A stretch of DNA of 33,073 nucleotides from an archaeon GW2011_AR19 (GTDB lineage Archaea; Nanobdellota; Nanobdellia; Pacearchaeales; GW2011-AR1), in NCBI GenBank assembly GCA_000806015.1, contig JWKY01000006.1:1-33073 (forward strand), written 5' to 3'. The notes beneath the pieces were generated by a model. It had not been told where the DNA came from and did no database searches. It worked only from the letters and a program-made list of their open reading frames with translations. The translations under genes were made by a program, and so were the position numbers. Below are positions 36-32,532 of this stretch, piece after piece; position 1 is the first letter of the stretch, and each line of letters begins with the position of its first letter.

Positions 36-479
36 ATGAAAAAGCAAAAAAAAGGGGCAATGGAATTATCTTTTGGAATGCTTTTTTCAATTATATTAAT
101 AATCATTTTTATTGCATTTGCAATTTACGGAGTTTCAAAATTTTTGAGTCTGCAAAAAGGGATACAAACAAAAACATTTGCTAATGATTTGAATTTTGAT
201 ATTGATAAGTTATGGAAATCTCAAGGTTCACAGCCAGTAGTTTATACTCTTCCTAAAAATGTTGAAAAAGTTTGTTTTAGCGAAGATGAATTTGAAAAAG
301 ATATTAATATTGAAATTCGCGGGGAAAAATCTATTGAAACTTATGATATAATTCATGCAAAACTTTCAGAAGATTTTTCTAAAGGTCAAGGCGGTAATTG
401 TGTTTCTGTTGAAAATGGAAAAATAGCTCTTCAGTTGGAAAAAGAGCGCAACGAGGCTTTGGTTGTTATTGGGAAATAG
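36..479 (+). CDS. Pilin-like secreted protein with class III signal peptide
   Basis: 147 aa. The N-terminus has a short basic stretch (KKQKKG), then AMELSFG and a hydrophobic helix (about residues 15-37), as in archaeal prepilins cut after Gly by an EppA/PibD-type peptidase. The rest is a soluble extracytoplasmic domain with two Cys (VCFS and NCVSV) that could form a disulfide. It is the first of four prepilin-like genes in the first 5.1 kb, suggesting minor pilins or pseudopilins of one surface filament, although no pilus ATPase or platform gene is in the window. The exact role is unknown; the assignment rests on the N-terminal pattern only. Confidence 0.7.
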   Translation: MKKQKKGAMELSFGMLFSIILIIIFIAFAIYGVSKFLSLQKGIQTKTFANDLNFDIDKLWKSQGSQPVVYTLPKNVEKVCFSEDEFEKDINIEIRGEKSIETYDIIHAKLSEDFSKGQGGNCVSVENGKIALQLEKERNEALVVIGK

Positions 480-1522: not shown

Positions 1523-2521
1523 ATGTTAAAAAAAAGAGGAACTCGCGCCCCCGCTCGATTTTTTCAAATTTACCTTCGGAATAATATCTCGCGAAAACGC
1601 TCGCAACTAAACATCTCCTTTGGCTGGCTTTTTGCAATCATTGTCGGCGCAATAATTCTTTTTTTAGCGATATTTGGAGCAACAAAAGTTATTAAAATCG
1701 GACAAAGTGAAGAACAGGCTGTTGGAGCAAAAGAGCTTGGAATTTTATTAAATCCTCTTGAAACCGGCTTTGAATCAGCAATTTCAACGCCTTTAGTATT
1801 AAAAACAGAGACAAGAATTTTAAATAAATGTTCTGTTTCAGGGAATTTTGGAAAACAGGGAATACAAATTTCTGAATTTAGTTTTAATAAATGGACTATT
1901 CCGGGAGTTGAATCGGGCTTTGAAAATAAATATATCTTTTCTAAAGCGCCATATACTGAAGGAAAAAAATTTTATATTTTTTCCAAGCCATTTGAATTTC
2001 CATTTAAAGTTTCAGATTTAATTTATCTGACTTCTGAAAATGAAAAATATTGTTTTGATAATGCACCGGAAGATATTGCAGAAGAAATTTCACAATTAAA
2101 TCAGGGGAATTTAGCTGCAGATTGTTTAAATGCCGAAGCCGATACTACTAAAATATGTTTTAATCCTGCAACAAATTGTGATATTCGTGTTTATTATGAT
2201 GAGGGATATATACAAAAAGACAAAGATAAAATTTATTTTGAAGAAGATTCTTTAATGTATTCTGCAATTTTTTCAAGTCCGGAAATATATTCTTGTCAAG
2301 TTCAAAGATTAATGAAAAGAACAAAACAACTTGCAGAATTGTATAAAGAAAAGGAATTATTATTATCTCAAAGAAATTGTGAAACAAATTTAGCCGGTGA
2401 TTTAGATTCATTAATCAGCCAGATAGAAAATGCTGAAGATTATAAAGTGATTTCCAGTGTCGATAGTTTAGTTGAAGGTCTTGAAAATAAAAATAAATAT
2501 GCAGAATGCACATTATGGTAA
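1523..2521 (+). CDS. Pilin-like secreted protein with repeat-expanded signal peptide
   Basis: 332 aa. It starts MLKKRG, is interrupted by a 21-codon insert, then resumes at QLNISFG with a hydrophobic helix (about residues 34-55). Removing the insert gives a normal archaeal prepilin leader (KKRG before Q). The insert itself ends in KRS, so a basic stretch still precedes the Gln that would be +1. The mature part is extracytoplasmic with about ten Cys, suggesting disulfides, and the C-terminal part is probably helical. There is no other Met near the mature start, so the ATG at 1523 is the likely start. It belongs with the prepilin-like genes at 36, 3303 and 4644; function is inferred from the leader only. 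Confidence 0.7.
   Translation: MLKKRGTRAPARFFQIYLRNNISRKRSQLNISFGWLFAIIVGAIILFLAIFGATKVIKIGQSEEQAVGAKELGILLNPLETGFESAISTPLVLKTETRILNKCSVSGNFGKQGIQISEFSFNKWTIPGVESGFENKYIFSKAPYTEGKKFYIFSKPFEFPFKVSDLIYLTSENEKYCFDNAPEDIAEEISQLNQGNLAADCLNAEADTTKICFNPATNCDIRVYYDEGYIQKDKDKIYFEEDSLMYSAIFSSPEIYSCQVQRLMKRTKQLAELYKEKELLLSQRNCETNLAGDLDSLISQIENAEDYKVISSVDSLVEGLENKNKYAECTLW
1541..1603 (+). repeat. 63-bp in-frame repeat insert in prepilin leader
   Basis: This segment is C-rich unlike the surrounding gene (GCGCCCCCGCTCG), is exactly 21 codons, and ends in AAACGCTCG immediately before the CAA codon for the +1 Gln. The independent insert at 3318-3446 ends the same way at the same point. It is related to the dispersed intergenic CTACTCCCG modules. 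Confidence 0.65.
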
Positions 2522-2522
2522 T

Positions 2523-2592
2523 GGGTTTCTTTTAAAAAAAGAAACTACAATGGTAGAAAAACTTGAATAGCAATGTAAAAGAAAATTAAAAT
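2523..2592. repeat. 70-bp intergenic hairpin repeat, copy 1
   Basis: GTTTCTTTT and AAAAGAAAC form a hairpin, followed by a conserved tail (ATGGTAGAAAAACTTGAATA and beyond). It is nearly identical to 9415-9484. This copy starts right after the stop codon of the upstream gene. It could be a terminator-like hairpin, a small mobile repeat or a small RNA. Confidence 0.7.
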
Positions 2593-2731
2593 AGTAAAAA
2601 AATGATAAACCAAAACACTTTTAAATCAGAGAAGATTAAAAATATTAGCAATCTTAGGATTGTGAGTATGATCCCCGGTGATCGCAAGGTTGCCGGATGT
2701 TTTTATGTTTCTAATAATTTTAGAGGTTTTT

Positions 2732-3301
2732 ATGGAAGATACAATAATTTTTGTTGATGATGGTTTTTTTGGACTTGTTAAAAAACATTTTCAAAAACAA
2801 GATGGGAAACCAAAAAGATATCTTCAGTCATTTAGAAATATATGTAAAAAAGAAAATCTAAATTTAAAACATCTTTTTATTTATACTTGTCCGCCTTATC
2901 AAAGTCCAAAACCAACTAAAAAAGAAGATTTCTTGACGAGCAGATATCAAAATATGACAAAGATGTTAAGAAAAAAAAATTGGATTACTTTAAGGGAAGG
3001 AAGATGTCAAAAATTTATTAATCTGGATGGAAAAGAAGATTTTTGTCAAAAAGGGGTTGATGCTTTAATTATTATGGATATGTATGATATTAAAGAGAGT
3101 TATCCTAATGTTAAAAAAATAATTTTAATTGCTTCTGATTCGGATTTTGTCCCCCTAATTGAGAAAATGAAGAAAAGAGGCGTTGAAATCTTTATTTATA
3201 CCTATTTTAATAGAAAACGAAAATCAAAGTTCTCAACTTCCAATCATCTTTTAAAAGTTGCATCGCGTTGGACGATGTTAACAAAGGAGGATTTTGAATA
3301 A
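2732..3301 (+). CDS. NYN domain (LabA/DUF88-like) putative ribonuclease
   Basis: 189 aa from the ATG at 2732, chosen over the upstream ATG at 2678 because GAGGT lies 5-10 nt before it and the fold begins at once with IIFVDDGFF. NYN-domain proteins are PIN-like metal-dependent nucleases with a set of acidic residues. Visible here are the N-terminal D-D pair, GVDALIIMDMYD in the middle and the hallmark IASDSDFVPLIEKMKKRG near residue 150, followed by a beta strand (VEIFIYTY). It probably acts on RNA in the cytoplasm. It sits in the prepilin-like cluster and its stop codon is 1 nt before the next ATG, so the two genes are probably co-transcribed, though a functional link is not shown. Confidence 0.85.
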   Translation: MEDTIIFVDDGFFGLVKKHFQKQDGKPKRYLQSFRNICKKENLNLKHLFIYTCPPYQSPKPTKKEDFLTSRYQNMTKMLRKKNWITLREGRCQKFINLDGKEDFCQKGVDALIIMDMYDIKESYPNVKKIILIASDSDFVPLIEKMKKRGVEIFIYTYFNRKRKSKFSTSNHLLKVASRWTMLTKEDFE

Positions 3302-3302
3302 A

Positions 3303-3971
3303 ATGATAAATAAAAAATCTACTCCCGCTTTGCCTTTGCTATTAGCAAAAAGAAAAAATTTGTCAAAGTCAAAACGCTCTACTCCCGCCTGCACTCGTAA
3401 TTTTTTAAAAGATTATTCTAATAAGTTTGTCTCGTGCAAACGCTCGCAAATGAAAATTCAGCAAATGGCGTTTATGTTAATAGCAGTTATGGTATTTTTT
3501 GCTTTGGTGGGATTGCTTATTTTTTCTGTAGGGTTTTCAGGATTAAAAGAAAAAGCAAGCGTCTTGCAGGAAGAAAATGCGAAACTGTTAGTTTCAAGAT
3601 TGGCTAACTCGCCTGAATTCTCGTGCGGACAGGCTTTTGGAAGCAAAGAAAATTGCATTGATTTAGATAAAGTATTTATTTTAAAAAATAATATAAATAA
3701 TTACAAAAATAAAAATAAAAATTTCTGGGGAGTTTTAGATATTGAAATAATAAAAATCTATCCTGAAAATAAAAATCTTATTTGCACAAGCGCAAATTAT
3801 CCCGATTGCGGCACTTTAAAACTTATTTCAGATCCAGGAGAAAAAACAACAGGAATCTCTGCAGAAAATTTTGTTTCGTTGTGCAGAAAAGAATATGATT
3901 CAGAAAATTACCTAAATTATGATAAATGCGAATTAGGAAAAATACTTGTGAGGTATGAGAAGATACAATAG
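3303..3971 (+). CDS. Pilin-like secreted protein with doubled repeat insert in leader
   Basis: 222 aa from the ATG at 3303, preceded by AAAGGAGG 12 nt upstream; the track's TTG at 3294 is less likely. The ancestral leader seems to be MINKK followed by QMKIQQMAF and a hydrophobic helix, a typical archaeal class III signal. A 43-codon repeat-derived stretch (STPAL ... CKRS) separates them and ends with KRS just before the +1 Gln. The mature protein is extracytoplasmic with several Cys (FSCGQ, NCID, ICTS, PDCG, LCRK, KCEL). It follows the NYN gene with 1-nt spacing. It is a likely minor pilin or pseudopilin; the partner machinery is not in the window. Confidence 0.7.
   Translation: MINKKSTPALPLLLAKRKNLSKSKRSTPACTRNFLKDYSNKFVSCKRSQMKIQQMAFMLIAVMVFFALVGLLIFSVGFSGLKEKASVLQEENAKLLVSRLANSPEFSCGQAFGSKENCIDLDKVFILKNNINNYKNKNKNFWGVLDIEIIKIYPENKNLICTSANYPDCGTLKLISDPGEKTTGISAENFVSLCRKEYDSENYLNYDKCELGKILVRYEKIQ
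3318..3446 (+). repeat. 129-bp in-frame insert made of two repeat units
   Basis: Two units, each starting TCTACTCCCGC and ending AAACGC, are joined head to tail (about 60 and 69 nt). The second unit matches intergenic DNA at about 19856-19913 (CTACTCCCGACCTCGC ... AATAAGTTTGTCTTGCGAA). The insert is 43 codons without a stop and lies exactly before the predicted peptidase site. Confidence 0.65.
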
Positions 3972-4055: not shown

Positions 4056-4262
4056 ATGCAAATTGAAATCTCAAATCAAAGCAAAGAAAAATTAAAGAAA
4101 ATTTCAGAAGCCACAGGATTTACTGCCAAAGATGTTTTAGACAGGGCTTTAATGTTCTTTTATTTAAGCACTGTAAAAGATGAAATTGAATTAAAAGAAG
4201 AACTCACTGCTTGGGATAAAGCAAGTGATGAAGATTTTGAAAACTTTGAAAGAAATTTATGA
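4056..4262 (+). CDS. Putative ribbon-helix-helix antitoxin of MazF/PemK pair
   Basis: 68 aa, acidic C-terminal half. The N-terminal pattern MQIEISNQSKEKLKKISEATG, with a short strand followed by two helices (FTAKDVLDRALMFFYL), fits a MetJ/Arc ribbon-helix-helix DNA-binding domain. The acidic tail (WDKASDEDFENFERNL) fits a toxin-binding segment. It lies 55 bp upstream of a MazF/PemK-type toxin in the same direction, the usual antitoxin-first order. It would bind its own promoter and neutralise the toxin. The strong AAAAGGAGGT 33 nt upstream is too far to serve this ATG and may be left over from rearrangement. Confidence 0.65.
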   Translation: MQIEISNQSKEKLKKISEATGFTAKDVLDRALMFFYLSTVKDEIELKEELTAWDKASDEDFENFERNL

Positions 4263-4317
4263 AAAAAAGCAAAAACAGGAAATTTTTTCATGTTTTCCAT
4301 TTTAACAGGAAATTAAA

Positions 4318-4647
4318 ATGAAAAAAGGAGATATTTTTCTCTTGGAACTTCCATTAAGCAATGGCCACGAACAATTTGGAATAAGACCCGCAATTGTTTT
4401 TTCTGAAGAAATTGGCAAAATGATTGTTGTAATTCCCTTAACAACTAAATTATCTGCTTTAAAATATTCTTTTACAATTAATATTGAAAATTCTAAATTA
4501 AATGGATTAAAAGAAAATTCTACGGCATTGTTGTTTCAGCTTCGCGCGCTTGATAAAAAGAGAATAAAAGACAAAATAGGAGAATTAGAAGAAAATTTAT
4601 TAAAAGAAATAGATAAATTGTTAATAGAGATGTTAAAACTAAAATGA
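4318..4647 (+). CDS. MazF/PemK family mRNA interferase toxin
   Basis: 109 aa, the normal length for this family. The opening MKKGDIFLLELP, the following RPAIVFSEE and VVIPLTTK are the characteristic strands of the MazF/PemK/Kid barrel, a sequence-specific endoribonuclease. The LRALDKKRIKDKIGEL segment near the C-terminus matches the family's last strand and helix. ACAGGAAATT precedes the ATG as a likely ribosome-binding site. Its TGA overlaps the ATG of the next prepilin-like gene (ATGA), so toxin and pilin-like protein are translationally coupled, which is odd for a toxin-antitoxin module. Confidence 0.9.
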   Translation: MKKGDIFLLELPLSNGHEQFGIRPAIVFSEEIGKMIVVIPLTTKLSALKYSFTINIENSKLNGLKENSTALLFQLRALDKKRIKDKIGELEENLLKEIDKLLIEMLKLK

Positions 4648-5135
4648 AAAATTACAAACAAAATAAGTTAGGACAAGAAGAAATGATTGGCTTTGCCCTG
4701 ATAATTATTTTAGTGTCTGTTATTTTGCTGGTTTTTTTGGCATTTTCCTTAAGCAAACCAAAGACAGAAGCAATAGAAAGTTATGAGGTCAATAGTTTCC
4801 TTCAATCAACTTTGCAATATACTGCGGCTTGTCAAACTTCCAGAGGGTTAAATTCTATTCAAGACCTTGTTTTTGAATGCGACCTTAAAGAGAGATGCTC
4901 AAATGAGGAGGACACTTGTAAAATATTAAATGAAACTCTGACTGATATTTTAAAAGAATCCTGGCCAACTGGAGAAGACAGACCTAATAAAGGATATGAA
5001 TTAATAATAAATGCAGGAGAAGAGATAATCTTGAAGATTCAAGAAGGAAATCTTACAAATAATTGCAAGGGTAGTTCTCAAATCTTGGCAAAATCAAGAA
5101 AAGAATTTTCAATTAATTTTGAGGCGTGTTTTTAA
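4644..5135 (+). CDS. Pilin-like secreted protein
   Basis: 163 aa. KQNKLG precedes QEEMIGFALIIILVSVILL, a clear archaeal class III signal (cut after Gly, mature N-terminus QEE with Glu near +3 and a hydrophobic helix). This is the most canonical leader of the four and carries no repeat insert. The mature domain has about seven Cys in a Cys-rich central loop (CDLKERCSNEEDTCK), suggesting disulfides. It overlaps the MazF-like gene by 4 nt and runs convergently into the wHTH gene with 13 bp between. Likely a pilin or pseudopilin. Confidence 0.75.
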   Translation: MKNYKQNKLGQEEMIGFALIIILVSVILLVFLAFSLSKPKTEAIESYEVNSFLQSTLQYTAACQTSRGLNSIQDLVFECDLKERCSNEEDTCKILNETLTDILKESWPTGEDRPNKGYELIINAGEEIILKIQEGNLTNNCKGSSQILAKSRKEFSINFEACF

Positions 5136-9392: not shown

Positions 9393-9485
9393 TGGGTTTT
9401 TCTTTTAGAAAAACGGGTTTCTTTTTGAAAAAAGAAACTACGATGGTAGAAAAACTTGAATAGCAATGTAAAAGAAAACTAAAAA
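9393..9485. repeat. 70-bp hairpin repeat, copy 2, with extra hairpin
   Basis: 9415-9484 nearly matches 2523-2592: GTTTCTTTTTGAAAAAAGAAAC hairpin plus the conserved tail ending in TAGCAATGTAAAAGAAAA. Just before it is a second hairpin (GTTTTTC-TTTTA-GAAAAAC). This copy lies immediately upstream of the gene at 9498, whereas copy 1 lies just after a gene. Confidence 0.7.
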
Positions 9486-15443: not shown

Positions 15444-15862
15444 TTTTTTTATATTGAGATGATAGGTTAATAAAAAAGAAATCTCCCTTTTTTAAAATGG
15501 AGTAGTTCGCCCACCATACTTCCGACCTCGCACGTAATTTTTTATTTGTTTTATTTTTTAAGTTTCTTTTGTGAAGTCTTTTGCCCCACCCACCAGCACT
15601 TCGTTCCCCTGCCTTCCAGCCCAGAGATCTTTTATTTTTATTATTTATTTTTAGTTACTGCCTACCACCTCCCCGATGGAAATTAACCAAGGAAACCGCA
15701 ACTCCCGACCCCGATTTCTATTTTTTATAAATGCCTTCGGAATTAATTAAAATCAAAGTCGTTCGCACTTTAGGGTGCGGAGGATGTCATTATGAATTTT
15801 CAACAAATTTTTTTAAATAGAAAAATATTTATATGAAATGAAATTAGAAACAATATTATAAA
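15444..15862. repeat. Intergenic region with C-rich repeat modules
   Basis: No gene is seen. It carries three modules shared with other spacers: CTTCCGACCTCGCACGTAAT (about 15529), TTGCCCCACCCACCAGCACT with its C-rich continuation (15573-15624), and TTTTTAGTTACTGCCTACCA (about 15649). A short inverted repeat CGCAC/GTGCG lies near 15764-15780. The 3' end holds the promoter of the gene at 15863 (ATATTTATATG). Confidence 0.55.
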
Positions 15863-16252: not shown

Positions 16253-16676
16253 TTTTTTAAGTTTCTCTCGCGGAGTTTTTTTGCTCACCCCCAGCGCTTC
16301 GCTCCCCCTCCTCCGACCCAGCATTGGGATAAAATAATTTACCCTCCGTGAACTTGCTCTACTCCCGACCTCGCACGGCATATTTTATCTTTTTTTATTT
16401 TTTAGTTACTGCCTACCACGAAGTCGCTCGCTATCGCTCGAATGAGATGACTTCGCATCAGCGTTCCGCATAATGCTTCGCTAAGAAAATTATCGTGTCA
16501 GAAAGGTTTGAAAAGTTGGATTAATTAATTATAAATTGAGGTTGATTAATTAAAACAAATAAAATTAAGATATAGAAATACTTTTATGGTACAATCTCAA
16601 AAAAATTTGAGTGACTTTGATTTACTGATATGAAAATTCTAAAATCTCTCTTTAATAAACCAAGAATCAAACCTAC
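16253..16676. repeat. Intergenic region with C-rich repeat modules
   Basis: No gene is seen; the minus-strand track ORF at 16190 translates repeat sequence. Modules: CACCCCCAGCGCTTCGCTCC with C-rich continuation (16283-16322), CTACTCCCGACCTCGCACGG (about 16350), TTTTTAGTTACTGCCTACCA (about 16401). A GC-rich inverted repeat CGAAGTC ... GACTTCG lies at about 16420-16456, with CGAGCG/CGCTCG self-complementarity inside. Confidence 0.55.
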
Positions 16677-17131: not shown

Positions 17132-17503
17132 GCTTTGTTCGAGCAATTACGAAAGGGACAAATTTTAATTTAAAAATAATTTATCAATAACAGCTTTCGT
17201 GATTGGGAGTAGGAATTGTTTTGAAATTGGAGTTTTGATTTTTCTTGAACAACGAAATTGCTCGTTGCTTTGCCCGCAAAATTGCCCTTACTCGAGACCT
17301 CACTCGGACTTTTCAAATTTGACTTCGTGATGAAATCTCGTGAAATCTCTCGCCCCCAGCGCTTCTACTCCCCCCTTCCAGCCCAGCTTCGGGATAAAAG
17401 GAATTGTCGTCATAAAAACATTTTAAAAGTTAAGCTGAATTTAATATTCACAGATATTTGAATTTCCAAGATTTAGTAAAAACTCAAAACTCCGAACAGA
17501 GCA
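17132..17503. mobile_element. Compound TIR element with nested 72-bp insert and C-rich cargo
   Basis: Ends are TGCTTTGTTCG (left) and CGAACAGAGCA (right), inverted with one mismatch. Just inside the left end sits the 72-bp insert (17140-17211), after which the family's left arm resumes (GGAATTGTTTTGAAATTGG). The right arm (TTTCCAAGATTTAGTAAAAA) abuts the prefoldin stop codon. The interior holds a CCCCCAGCGCTT C-rich module (about 17350-17388). No transposase is encoded. No clear target duplication is seen. Confidence 0.6.
17140..17211 (+). repeat. 72-bp nested inverted-end insert, copy 1
   Basis: Matches the reverse complement of 19937-20008 at 69 of 72 positions by eye. Its own ends are partly inverted (AATTACGAAAG and CTTTCGTGATT), so it looks like a small palindromic element inserted into a larger one. 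Confidence 0.75.
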
Positions 17504-17836: not shown

Positions 17837-17971
17837 TTTGTTTAATGTATCTAATGATAAATTTTTTTATTCAAATTTTTAATAGATTGTCCCGCAAAAC
17901 CACTTTATTCAGCTCGTAAGCCCACTCGGTTATTTATATAATTTATCTAATTAATTTTCTCCTCCGTGAAG

Positions 17972-18109
17972 TCATTCGGCTTTTACTTTTTTGATTTTTG
18001 TTCTTTGCTTGTAAAAAATTTTGCTTCCACAAGCAGGACAAACAAATCTTTTTTTTAGATCTTCGTCTTTTATTTTACTTTTACAATTGAAACATTTGTA
18101 GGTTATCAT
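17972..18109 (-). CDS. rpoP: DNA-directed RNA polymerase subunit P (Rpb12-like)
   Basis: 45 aa, too short for the ORF track. The translation starts MITYKCFNCKSKIKDEDL and continues with CPACGSKIFYKQRTKIKK. The CxxC ... CPxCGSKIFYKxR zinc ribbon is diagnostic of archaeal RpoP/Rpb12, a small zinc-binding core subunit of RNA polymerase. It lies between the L37Ae and prefoldin beta genes on the same strand, the conserved archaeal gene order. Start is the ATG at 18109; stop is TGA at 17972-17974. An AT-rich gap of 115 bp separates it from L37Ae. Confidence 0.93.
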   Translation of the reverse strand: MITYKCFNCKSKIKDEDLKKRFVCPACGSKIFYKQRTKIKKVKAE

Positions 18110-19810: not shown

Positions 19811-20103
19811 GGCTCTGTTGAAAATCTCTTTTTTACATTTCGTTTTGAATTCTAATCTACTCCCGACCTCGCTCGCGATTAATAAAAATAAAATAAGTTT
19901 GTCTTGCGAAGTCATTTGCCCCACCCACCAGCGCTTTACTCCCAATCACGAAAGCTGTTATTAATAAATTATTTTTAAATCAAAATTTGTCACTTTCGTA
20001 ATTGCTCGGCTCCCCCTTCCTCCACCCAGAATTACTCTCGTCATTCACTTTTATAATTAATTGCCAAAGAAAGTTACGAACTCAAAACTTTTTCAACAGA
20101 GTC
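19811..20103. mobile_element. Larger TIR element with C-rich cargo and nested 72-bp insert
   Basis: Ends GGCTCTGTTGAAAA and TTTTCAACAGAGTC are inverted with one mismatch. Inside are CTACTCCCGACCTCGCTCGC, then GAAGTCATTTGCCCCACCCA, and the C-rich module CCAGCGCTT...CTCCCCCTTC split by the 72-bp insert (19937-20008). No reading frame of note and no target duplication is seen, so it may be older than the pair flanking the tRNA. The element fills the gap between two minus-strand genes. Confidence 0.65.
19937..20008 (-). repeat. 72-bp nested insert, copy 2 (inverted relative to 17140)
   Basis: Reverse complement of 17140-17211 with three differences by eye. Here it interrupts a C-rich module between AGCGCTT and CTCCCCC, positions that are adjacent apart from CG in the uninterrupted copy at 20641. 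Confidence 0.75.
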
Positions 20104-26023: not shown

Positions 26024-26073
26024 AAATGAAAAATAAATTTTTCATAACAATACAAAACAGGAGGTTTTGCATA

Positions 26074-26448
26074 ATGGAAATAAAGGAATATATTTACTCT
26101 CTAAAAAAATCAAATGGCAAGTGTGAATGCAGGGATTTGTCAAGATTATTTTTTCTGAACAAAGAAAGAAAAACTCTTAAAAATGAATGCGAATATTTAA
26201 TGGATGAGTTAAACGAAAACCCAAATTATGGAGTAAAGGAAATGTATGATGAAAGAGCAAGTTCTTTTATGGAATACAAGAATTTATATTACGCTGAATT
26301 AGACAAACTTGCCAAAGAAAAAAAATTAAAATTTTGTTATCATAGTGAAAAAGAAAATTATAAAAAATATTTTATAAGCTCTAATGAAGCAAGAGAATTG
26401 CTTGGATATAAAGAGATAATTACCTCTCATTGCTCCAATTGTGAATAG
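26074..26448 (+). CDS. Cys-rich helical protein, tandem paralog B
   Basis: 124 aa from the ATG at 26074, which follows ACAGGAGGTTTTGCATA; the longer track start at 25987 runs through the preceding gene. Shares the full pattern of paralog A: GKCECRDLSRLFFLNKERKTL, then KKLKFCYHSEKENYKK and a terminal SHCSNCE. Probable zinc-binding protein from a tandem duplication. Its leader matches the triple repeat upstream of the MNT-HEPN gene at 31702. Confidence 0.7.
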   Translation: MEIKEYIYSLKKSNGKCECRDLSRLFFLNKERKTLKNECEYLMDELNENPNYGVKEMYDERASSFMEYKNLYYAELDKLAKEKKLKFCYHSEKENYKKYFISSNEARELLGYKEIITSHCSNCE

Positions 26449-31577: not shown

Positions 31578-31621
31578 ATATTAAAGTATATAATAAAAAA
31601 ATGAAAATTAAAAATCTTCAT

Positions 31622-31702
31622 AGATACAAAACAGGAAATTTTGCATAAAGATACAAAACAGGAAATTTTGCATAAAGATACAAAACAGGAAATTTTGCAT
31701 AA
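31622..31702 (+). repeat. Perfect 27-bp tandem repeat x3 in leader of MNT-HEPN gene
   Basis: Three identical units AGATACAAAACAGGAAATTT + TGCATAA. Each unit is nine codons (RYKTGNFA-stop) in frame with an ATG at 31601, carries an AGGAAA site, and the last ends TAATG, overlapping the start of the next gene. A diverged single unit precedes 26074. The minus-strand track ORF here (CKISCFVSL x3) only reflects the repeat. Confidence 0.95.
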
Positions 31703-32532
31703 TGGTGAATAAAAAAAAGAGAACTGAAAAAAGCAATTTAAAAAACATTCCGACTTTGAAATTAAAAAGCGAGCATGAAATTGCAATGGATTTTGCAACA
31801 AAGGCTTATAAAAAATTTGAAAAGGCAATAAAATCAATTATTCTTTTTGGCTCAACGGCAAAAAAAACGCAAACTGTCGGTTCAGATATTGATATTATAA
31901 TCGTAATTGACGACGCGTCTATAAAATGGGATCAGGAATTAACTGCTTGGTATAGGCAGGAGCTTGATGCGATTTTAAGAACAAATCCTTATCAAACAAG
32001 TCTTCATATTAATACGGTAAAATTAACAACCTGGTGGCAGGATTTAATGCGGGGCGATCCAATTATTTTAAATATTCTTAGAAATGGAGAAGCTTTAGTT
32101 GATATGGCCGGATTTTTTGACCCGTTGAAATTTTTATTAATTCAGGGAAAAATAAAATCAACCCCTGAAGCAATTTATAATAATCTTCAAAGAGCTCCGG
32201 CGCATCTTGCGCGAAGCAAAGCAGCAGAATTAAATGCTATTGAAGGTTTATATTGGTGCATGGTTGATTCTGCCCACGCTGCTTTGATTTCGGCAAATGT
32301 TTCTCCGCCCTCGCCAGAACATATTCCGGAAGAGCTTGCGCGAAATTTTGTTAATAACAAAAAATTAAAAATAGAATATGTTCAGTGGTATCGGGAACTT
32401 CTCGCGCTTCATAAAGAAATTTCTCATGGAAAAATAACTGATTTAAAGGGCGCTGATATTGATTTGTGGCAGAAGAGGGCGGAAGAATTTTTATCAACAA
32501 TGGCGAAGCTGATTAAAGAAAGTGTGAAGTGA
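31702..32532 (+). CDS. MNT-HEPN fusion (nucleotidyltransferase plus HEPN)
   Basis: 276 aa. Nucleotidyltransferase domain near residues 25-140 with the complete GSx10DxD signature (FGSTAKKTQTVGSDIDIIIV). The C-terminal helical half matches HEPN, with R-x5-H in YRELLALHKEIS. MNT and HEPN are usually separate antitoxin and toxin genes in which the MNT protein AMPylates HEPN; here both are in one chain. The ATG overlaps the last repeat unit's TAA. Confidence 0.8.
   Translation: MVNKKKRTEKSNLKNIPTLKLKSEHEIAMDFATKAYKKFEKAIKSIILFGSTAKKTQTVGSDIDIIIVIDDASIKWDQELTAWYRQELDAILRTNPYQTSLHINTVKLTTWWQDLMRGDPIILNILRNGEALVDMAGFFDPLKFLLIQGKIKSTPEAIYNNLQRAPAHLARSKAAELNAIEGLYWCMVDSAHAALISANVSPPSPEHIPEELARNFVNNKKLKIEYVQWYRELLALHKEISHGKITDLKGADIDLWQKRAEEFLSTMAKLIKESVK

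Follow-up and report, generated by a model that had tools for sequence, protein, structure and literature searches.

A dispersed repeat of ~65 nt has inserted, in frame and immediately before the predicted cleavage site, into the leaders of prepilin-like genes of an archaeon and its relatives, in at least 12 genera. The repeat probably proliferates in these genomes, with in-frame inserts in prepilin leaders being tolerated since their removal together with the leader is expected. In-frame insertion of a repeat into the prepilin leader had been proposed from a sequence-only reading of the window, the 33,073-nt stretch of DNA analysed here; the proposal is supported, and it extends to a third pilin of the same genome (G000, a 678-kb draft MAG in 20 contigs) and to other genomes.

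Leader inserts in the window

In agreement with that reading, gene 1523 encodes MLKKRG, 21 inserted codons (63 nt, 1541-1603) and then Q (CAA), and gene 3303 encodes MINKK, 43 inserted codons (129 nt, 3318-3446) and Q (CAA) (Table 1). Both inserts, which are copies of the ~65-nt repeat, end with AAACGCTCG directly before CAA, and the larger one consists of two units head to tail, starting TCTACTCCCGC. As had been claimed, they are C-rich, with 32% C in 1523 and 24% in 3303 against 12-13% in the mature parts; the G+C content is 47.6% and 38.0%, respectively, against 30%. For the insert at 1541-1603 the structured RNA strand is the minus strand and the coding strand the plus strand. The intergenic match of the second unit, previously placed near 19856-19913, is a copy of the repeat at 19857-19918, and the sister genes at 36 and 4644 indeed have leaders that are short and free of the unit. 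At 4056-4647, a PemK/MazF-like toxin gene (E 2e-23) and a short upstream ORF separate pilin genes 3303 and 4644.

Table 1. Prepilin-like genes of the window, the repeat units in their leaders and intergenic copies of the unit (R1, covariance model of the unit).
Feature	Position	Strand	Evidence
Sister pilin-like gene, short leader MKKQKKG	36..479	+	ORF; G015 ortholog with two-unit insert
Prepilin-like gene, class III signal peptide, 332 aa, 21-codon leader insert	1523..2521	+	ORF; G002 ortholog 83% identical, without insert
Single repeat unit between leader codon -1 (GGA) and +1 (CAA), in frame	1541..1603	-	R1 E 7.7e-15 at 1540-1603; G002 site empty
Prepilin-like gene, 43-codon leader insert	3303..3971	+	ORF; homologs in ~30 genera, leaders 3 to >40 residues
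Class B (TTTGTCAAAGTCAAAACGCTC) unit, first in tandem insert	3318..3378	-	R1 E 4.3e-5 at 3319-3380; related intergenic copies L007-L009
Class A unit, second in tandem insert, ends AAACGCTCG before +1 CAA	3379..3446	-	R1 E 2.8e-16; C10 pilin leader unit 88% identical
Sister pilin-like gene, short leader	4644..5135	+	ORF; unit present in G016, G017 and G170 orthologs
Intergenic unit copy	15699..15765	-	R1 E 7e-5
Intergenic unit copy	16359..16430	-	R1 E 1.5e-6
Weaker intergenic unit copy, arm of 72-nt inverted repeat	17140..17212	+	R1 E 2.4e-5; inverted repeat I1
Intergenic unit copy, sub-type as in 1523 insert	17289..17352	-	R1 E 6.5e-14
Intergenic unit copy	17910..17978	-	R1 E 2.3e-5
Intergenic unit copy, named in the sequence-only reading	19857..19918	-	R1 E 5.2e-10
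Weaker intergenic unit copy	19937..20008	-	R1 E 6e-5

The pilin genes show the traits of archaeal type IV prepilins, namely a short basic leader, a small residue at -1 and a hydrophobic segment (e.g. MLKKG^, MRKRG^ and MVNKKG^, the caret marking the cleavage site). Ser at -1 is less usual in prepilins than Gly or Ala. Matches to A24 prepilin peptidases were found in 15 of 16 genomes. The PF01478 profile scored above its cut-off in the two congeners G001 and G002, and in G000 at 23.1 bits, below the cut-off of 26.5, at C17:6201-6506.

Empty and filled sites among congeners

Orthologs of the filled leaders are empty in close relatives. The G002 ortholog of 1523 reads ATGTTAAAAAAGGGG^CAATTAAATATT, MLKKG^QLNISFGW, without the unit. 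The third filled G000 pilin (C10:15345-15929) has two units inserted at the same site, MNNKKG-TRAPAQQFIKNILPSQKRS-TRIRTRNYLNNYSNQFVSCKRS^VSPVIATILL, and its orthologs are empty (MRKRG^VSPVIA in G002, MKKA^VSPVIA in G001). A further pilin shows the reverse: G000 has the empty leader (MVEIYSNYKG^QVWIE) and G002 the filled one (MVKIYSNYRTIRVPTSVMRENICLKSKRS^QVWIE), the DNA reading AATTATAAGGGG^CAAGTC in the former and AATTATAGA, the repeat ending in AAACGCTCA and ^CAAGTC in the latter, with nearly identical flanks. Since the 1523 and C10 pilins are empty in G002 and the QVWIE pilin is reversed, the filled or empty state changes within one genus. The search for insert-free leaders suggested by the sequence-only reading thus found them at the 1523 and C10 sites in a congener and in most related genera. 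The three G000 pilins do not share one insert unit but carry different ones. Among pilins of the 3303 family, leaders vary in length even in the absence of the unit; the G002 leader has 24 residues and no repeat, and a repeat search within the G002 genome did not recognise it as one.

Copy number, distribution and RNA structure of the unit

The covariance model R1, built from 22 copies, gave 93 matches in G000 up to E 1, ~85 of them below 0.005. G001 and G002 hold 36 and 56 copies and other genera of the family 0-15, and none were found in 23 genomes from other families of the order or class. On the C-rich strand the unit reads CTACTCSCGNCC...(A/T-rich)...CTCGYGMAAWCGCTCG, measures 51-84 nt and is often tandem. 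Near-identical tandem pairs at G000:C1:21662-21776 and C12:18875-19012 look as if units duplicate in place. The arms at 17140-17212 and 19937-20008, both weak R1 matches, form a 72-nt inverted repeat, 96% complementary and 2.7 kb apart. An A-rich or other constant target before the unit was absent from the flanks of 85 copies in G000, and neither a clear target duplication at the insertions nor a mobilising enzyme was identified. A pilin-switching model, with silent pilin cassettes behind intergenic copies, was rejected, as none of the 3' flanks of these copies resembled a pilin start by eye. The window also holds repeats of other types: an intergenic one of 69 nt, 91% identical between 2523-2591 and 9416-9484, and one of ~27 nt (ATACAAAACAGGAAATTTTGCATAA), single and tandem, at 4252-4286, 26034-26077 and 31609-31705, two copies of which end beside ATG.

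The two ends of the unit pair on the G-rich strand in a 9-bp terminal stem. In a MAFFT alignment made without reference to structure, 97% of the stem cells are standard pairs, with both-side changes at 6 of 9 pairs; the controls gave 80% in shuffles and 30-50% with the partner slid. A 91-copy alignment, which leans to the structure, gave 96.5% paired cells and both-side compensatory changes at 9 of 9 pairs. On the G-rich strand U-G pairs are far more numerous than G-U pairs; as they would be mismatches on the opposite strand, this indicates that the unit is maintained as an RNA hairpin of the former. When copies were folded one by one as the coding strand, the result was mostly no better than for shuffled sequences; a signal emerged from the opposite strand and from the alignment. 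No Rfam family matched the unit.

Recurrence in prepilin leaders across genera

The survey covered five pilin families in about 30 genera and was followed by a leader-profile search of 181 genomes of the family. Filled leaders with R1 support (E<0.01) were found in 20 prepilin-like genes from 12 genera (three each in G000 and G116, two each in G015 and G170, and one each in G002, G016, G017, G022, G023, G066, G068, G071, G153 and G156). Others were recognised by sequence signature alone (three in G125, one more in G015, a second in G071, and one each in G110, G127, G060 and G067). In filled leaders the insert always ends at the +1 residue, i.e. at the predicted cleavage site, and nearly all end in K-R-S; the coding strand is the C-rich strand in all of them. 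As many were found with a leader-derived profile, the orientation and frame shared by distant leaders are partly ascertained. The first eight genes (three in G000, two in G015, and G016, G017 and G023), found without this profile, are all in the C-rich orientation, compared to 4 of 12 non-pilin coding copies (Fisher P 0.005).

Unrelated repeats also occupy prepilin leaders, in G029, G031, G005, G015 and G023. In a G029 pilin cluster (L061) two paralogous leaders are filled by the palindrome GGAACCAAGGTTCC, and in a G031 cluster (L055) AGAACCTGGGGGAAGAATGCCCAG occupies the same codon position in three paralogous leaders, flanked by CAG on either side.

Copies in other coding genes

The sequence-only reading had suggested a search for the unit inside other ORFs, and in-frame copies were located elsewhere in G000, each unit adding 19-23 residues in coding genes. 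Housekeeping genes are named here after sequence motifs that were identified by visual inspection. Elp3 reads IE[RFRGGQKLITNNRARSGVE]LG, exactly 57 nt more than IELG in G001, and TruB reads KEL[CSRPHSVIGKDNLSSVKSLG]IGAHM compared to KELNVGAHM in G001. Two identical units lie in frame at the C-terminus of uL10 and two in the N-terminal part of methionine aminopeptidase (MetAP); further in-frame copies occur in a glutamine amidotransferase-like protein, an RsmB-like methyltransferase, a PolX-like protein and a Sec-type leader. Uninterrupted orthologs exist in G001, G002 or G004 for the TruB, Elp3, amidotransferase, RsmB-like, uL10 and MetAP inserts. The PolX-like insert was dropped as a clean presence/absence case, as an identical stretch is present in G002. 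This insert and its immediate flanks (G000 C8:7606-7667; L249 in G002:C9) look identical although other genes of the congeners differ clearly, which suggests a conversion or recent transfer. ORFs over copies such as C11:11708-11998 and C12:18875-19012 look spurious and were left out of the counts.

In G000, 15 of 85 units are coding, far below the expectation for random placement. Pilin leaders make up 3 of the 11 genes hit, with P between 1e-6 and 2e-8 for random placement in coding DNA, the range depending on the pilin number assumed. PolB of G031 carries the unit within its exonuclease region (L188, G031:C9:46897-46959). A different repeat occupies nearly the same place in PolB of G015 (L275, G015:C23:4090-4171); this spot, between VITWK and the YVEY/VEYVEDEAEL region, is thus filled in frame in two genera and is another recurrent hotspot.

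Proposed mechanism and alternative explanations

We propose that the genomes of this Nanoarchaeota-type family host a proliferating repeat of ~65 nt whose G-rich strand is kept as a stem-loop RNA. The majority of copies are intergenic; most coding insertions would be lost, and in-frame ones would stay where the added residues do little harm. The prepilin leader would be such a dispensable segment, because A24 peptidases cut off the basic N-terminus only and the hydrophobic segment stays (PMC4858521); the prepilin peptidase would remove the insert and leave the mature pilin unchanged. As the unit end AAACGCTCG reads K/N-R-S and would rebuild a basic and a small residue beside an untouched +1, insertion between -1 and +1 would work in one orientation and frame. 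We infer that cleavage takes place after the Ser of KRS, that the peptide is removed, that the inserts are neutral, and that insertion rather than excision is the main direction. Tolerance through removal of the segment is the best explanation for the observations.

Alternatively, placement itself could be biased, with the repeat delivered to prepilin cleavage codons (AAARGN^CAR) either because it prefers that target or because pilin paralogs exchange it by gene conversion, which we consider unlikely. Leader copies of the R1 family all follow the host K-K-G, exactly at -1/+1, and none was seen upstream; since an insert would be harmless there too, this leaves room for biased targeting. Several paralogs are filled per genome (three in G000, three by sequence in G015, three in G116), and the unrelated G031 repeat with its single codon position points the same way. 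Intergenic copies, however, have no AAARGG-type target in their flanks, the junctions in Elp3 and TruB are CTC/GAG, and the three G000 pilins hold different units and not one converted sequence. A wider form of this idea, in which the leader is a preferred landing site and safe harbour, with the hairpin RNA and unrelated repeats delivered to cleavage codons by an RNA- or recombination-based route and the KRS end selected to rebuild the peptidase site, appears just as doubtful.

Still less probable is a domesticated leader element, in which the hairpin or the extended basic leader would be functional, for instance by co-regulating pilin translation or secretion. The occurrence in many genera, the fixed orientation and the frequent tandem units would fit such a role, but presence and absence flip among congeners and among the paralogs of one genome, the covarying U-G stem belongs to the strand opposite to the pilin mRNA, and the unit also occurs in unrelated housekeeping genes.

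True starts downstream of the insert, which would make it 5' untranslated and its frame incidental, are very improbable. Gene 3303 does have ATG as its +2 codon and TTG codons within its first unit. In 1523 and C10, however, where a downstream start had been set beforehand as a test, no in-frame ATG, GTG or TTG occurs from the insert start to the hydrophobic segment, so that the insert must be translated; moreover, the frames are open through the insert, and TruB and the RsmB-like gene carry the unit internally. Chimeric joins in a draft MAG of 20 contigs, a known risk as assemblers fail at repeats, can hardly be the cause, as both flanks of the inserts are colinear with uninterrupted orthologs in other genomes and the same arrangement recurs in many genera whose genomes were assembled independently.

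Relation to known repeat families

Rickettsia palindromic elements (RPEs) were reportedly described by Ogata et al. in 2000 and 2002, and Wolbachia counterparts in 2005. The likeness to RPEs noted in the sequence-only reading holds for behaviour. According to passages of PMC2229807 and PMC10969869, RPEs insert in frame in protein genes, including TruB; like them, the archaeal unit is a short stem-forming repeat of many copies, lies in frame in conserved protein genes with uninterrupted orthologs, TruB in both cases, and is without a known mobilising enzyme. It differs in its host, an archaeon instead of Rickettsia, in its length (~65 nt, range 51-84, compared to 105-146 nt), in having only a 9-bp terminal stem, in being read in either orientation and in more than one frame, and in its concentration at the prepilin cleavage site.

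Passages of PMC3733652 describe GTAG/CGTC-tagged REPs with RAYT transposases, whose intragenic copies encode 20-30 aa and hit TruB and DNA polymerase genes. These share with the archaeal unit short hairpins, G-T pairs suggesting RNA, tandem groups, intragenic copies and the TruB and DNA polymerase targets, but the taxa named there are bacterial. Instead of a 5' GTAG tag, the unit has CTAC flanking the 5' side of the stem; the C-rich strand has a conserved 5' CTACTC, and the other strand carries GGGAGTAG 3' of the stem. Mobilisation by RAYT/IS200 was rejected, as a Y1_Tnp (RAYT-type, PF01797) profile search with positive controls found no match in the incomplete genomes of the three richest congeners G000, G001 and G002. 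We assign the unit to neither the RPEs nor the GTAG REPs, as host, unit size and tag differ and there is no RAYT gene. In the part of PMC2229807 on Yersinia RU-2 (YPAL), a fusion forms part of a predicted signal peptide, so that there, too, a small mobile sequence supplies residues to an N-terminal targeting sequence; that case is one locus with a Sec-type prediction, whereas the archaeal unit sits in class III prepilin leaders, recurrently over genera and paralogs.

Significance

Palindromic repeats within protein-coding sequence are familiar from Rickettsia, Wolbachia and other bacteria, and the archaeal case adds to them; no report of in-frame palindromic repeats in archaea was found in the open-access literature. 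The archaeal case offers a clear reason for tolerance that the bacterial ones lack, namely that the host should remove the inserted segment. The natural replicates over genera and paralogs let insertion bias and selection be told apart, and the many natural variants can be used to test how much leader the prepilin peptidase accepts. For DPANN pilins, leader lengths and start-site calls may be wrong.
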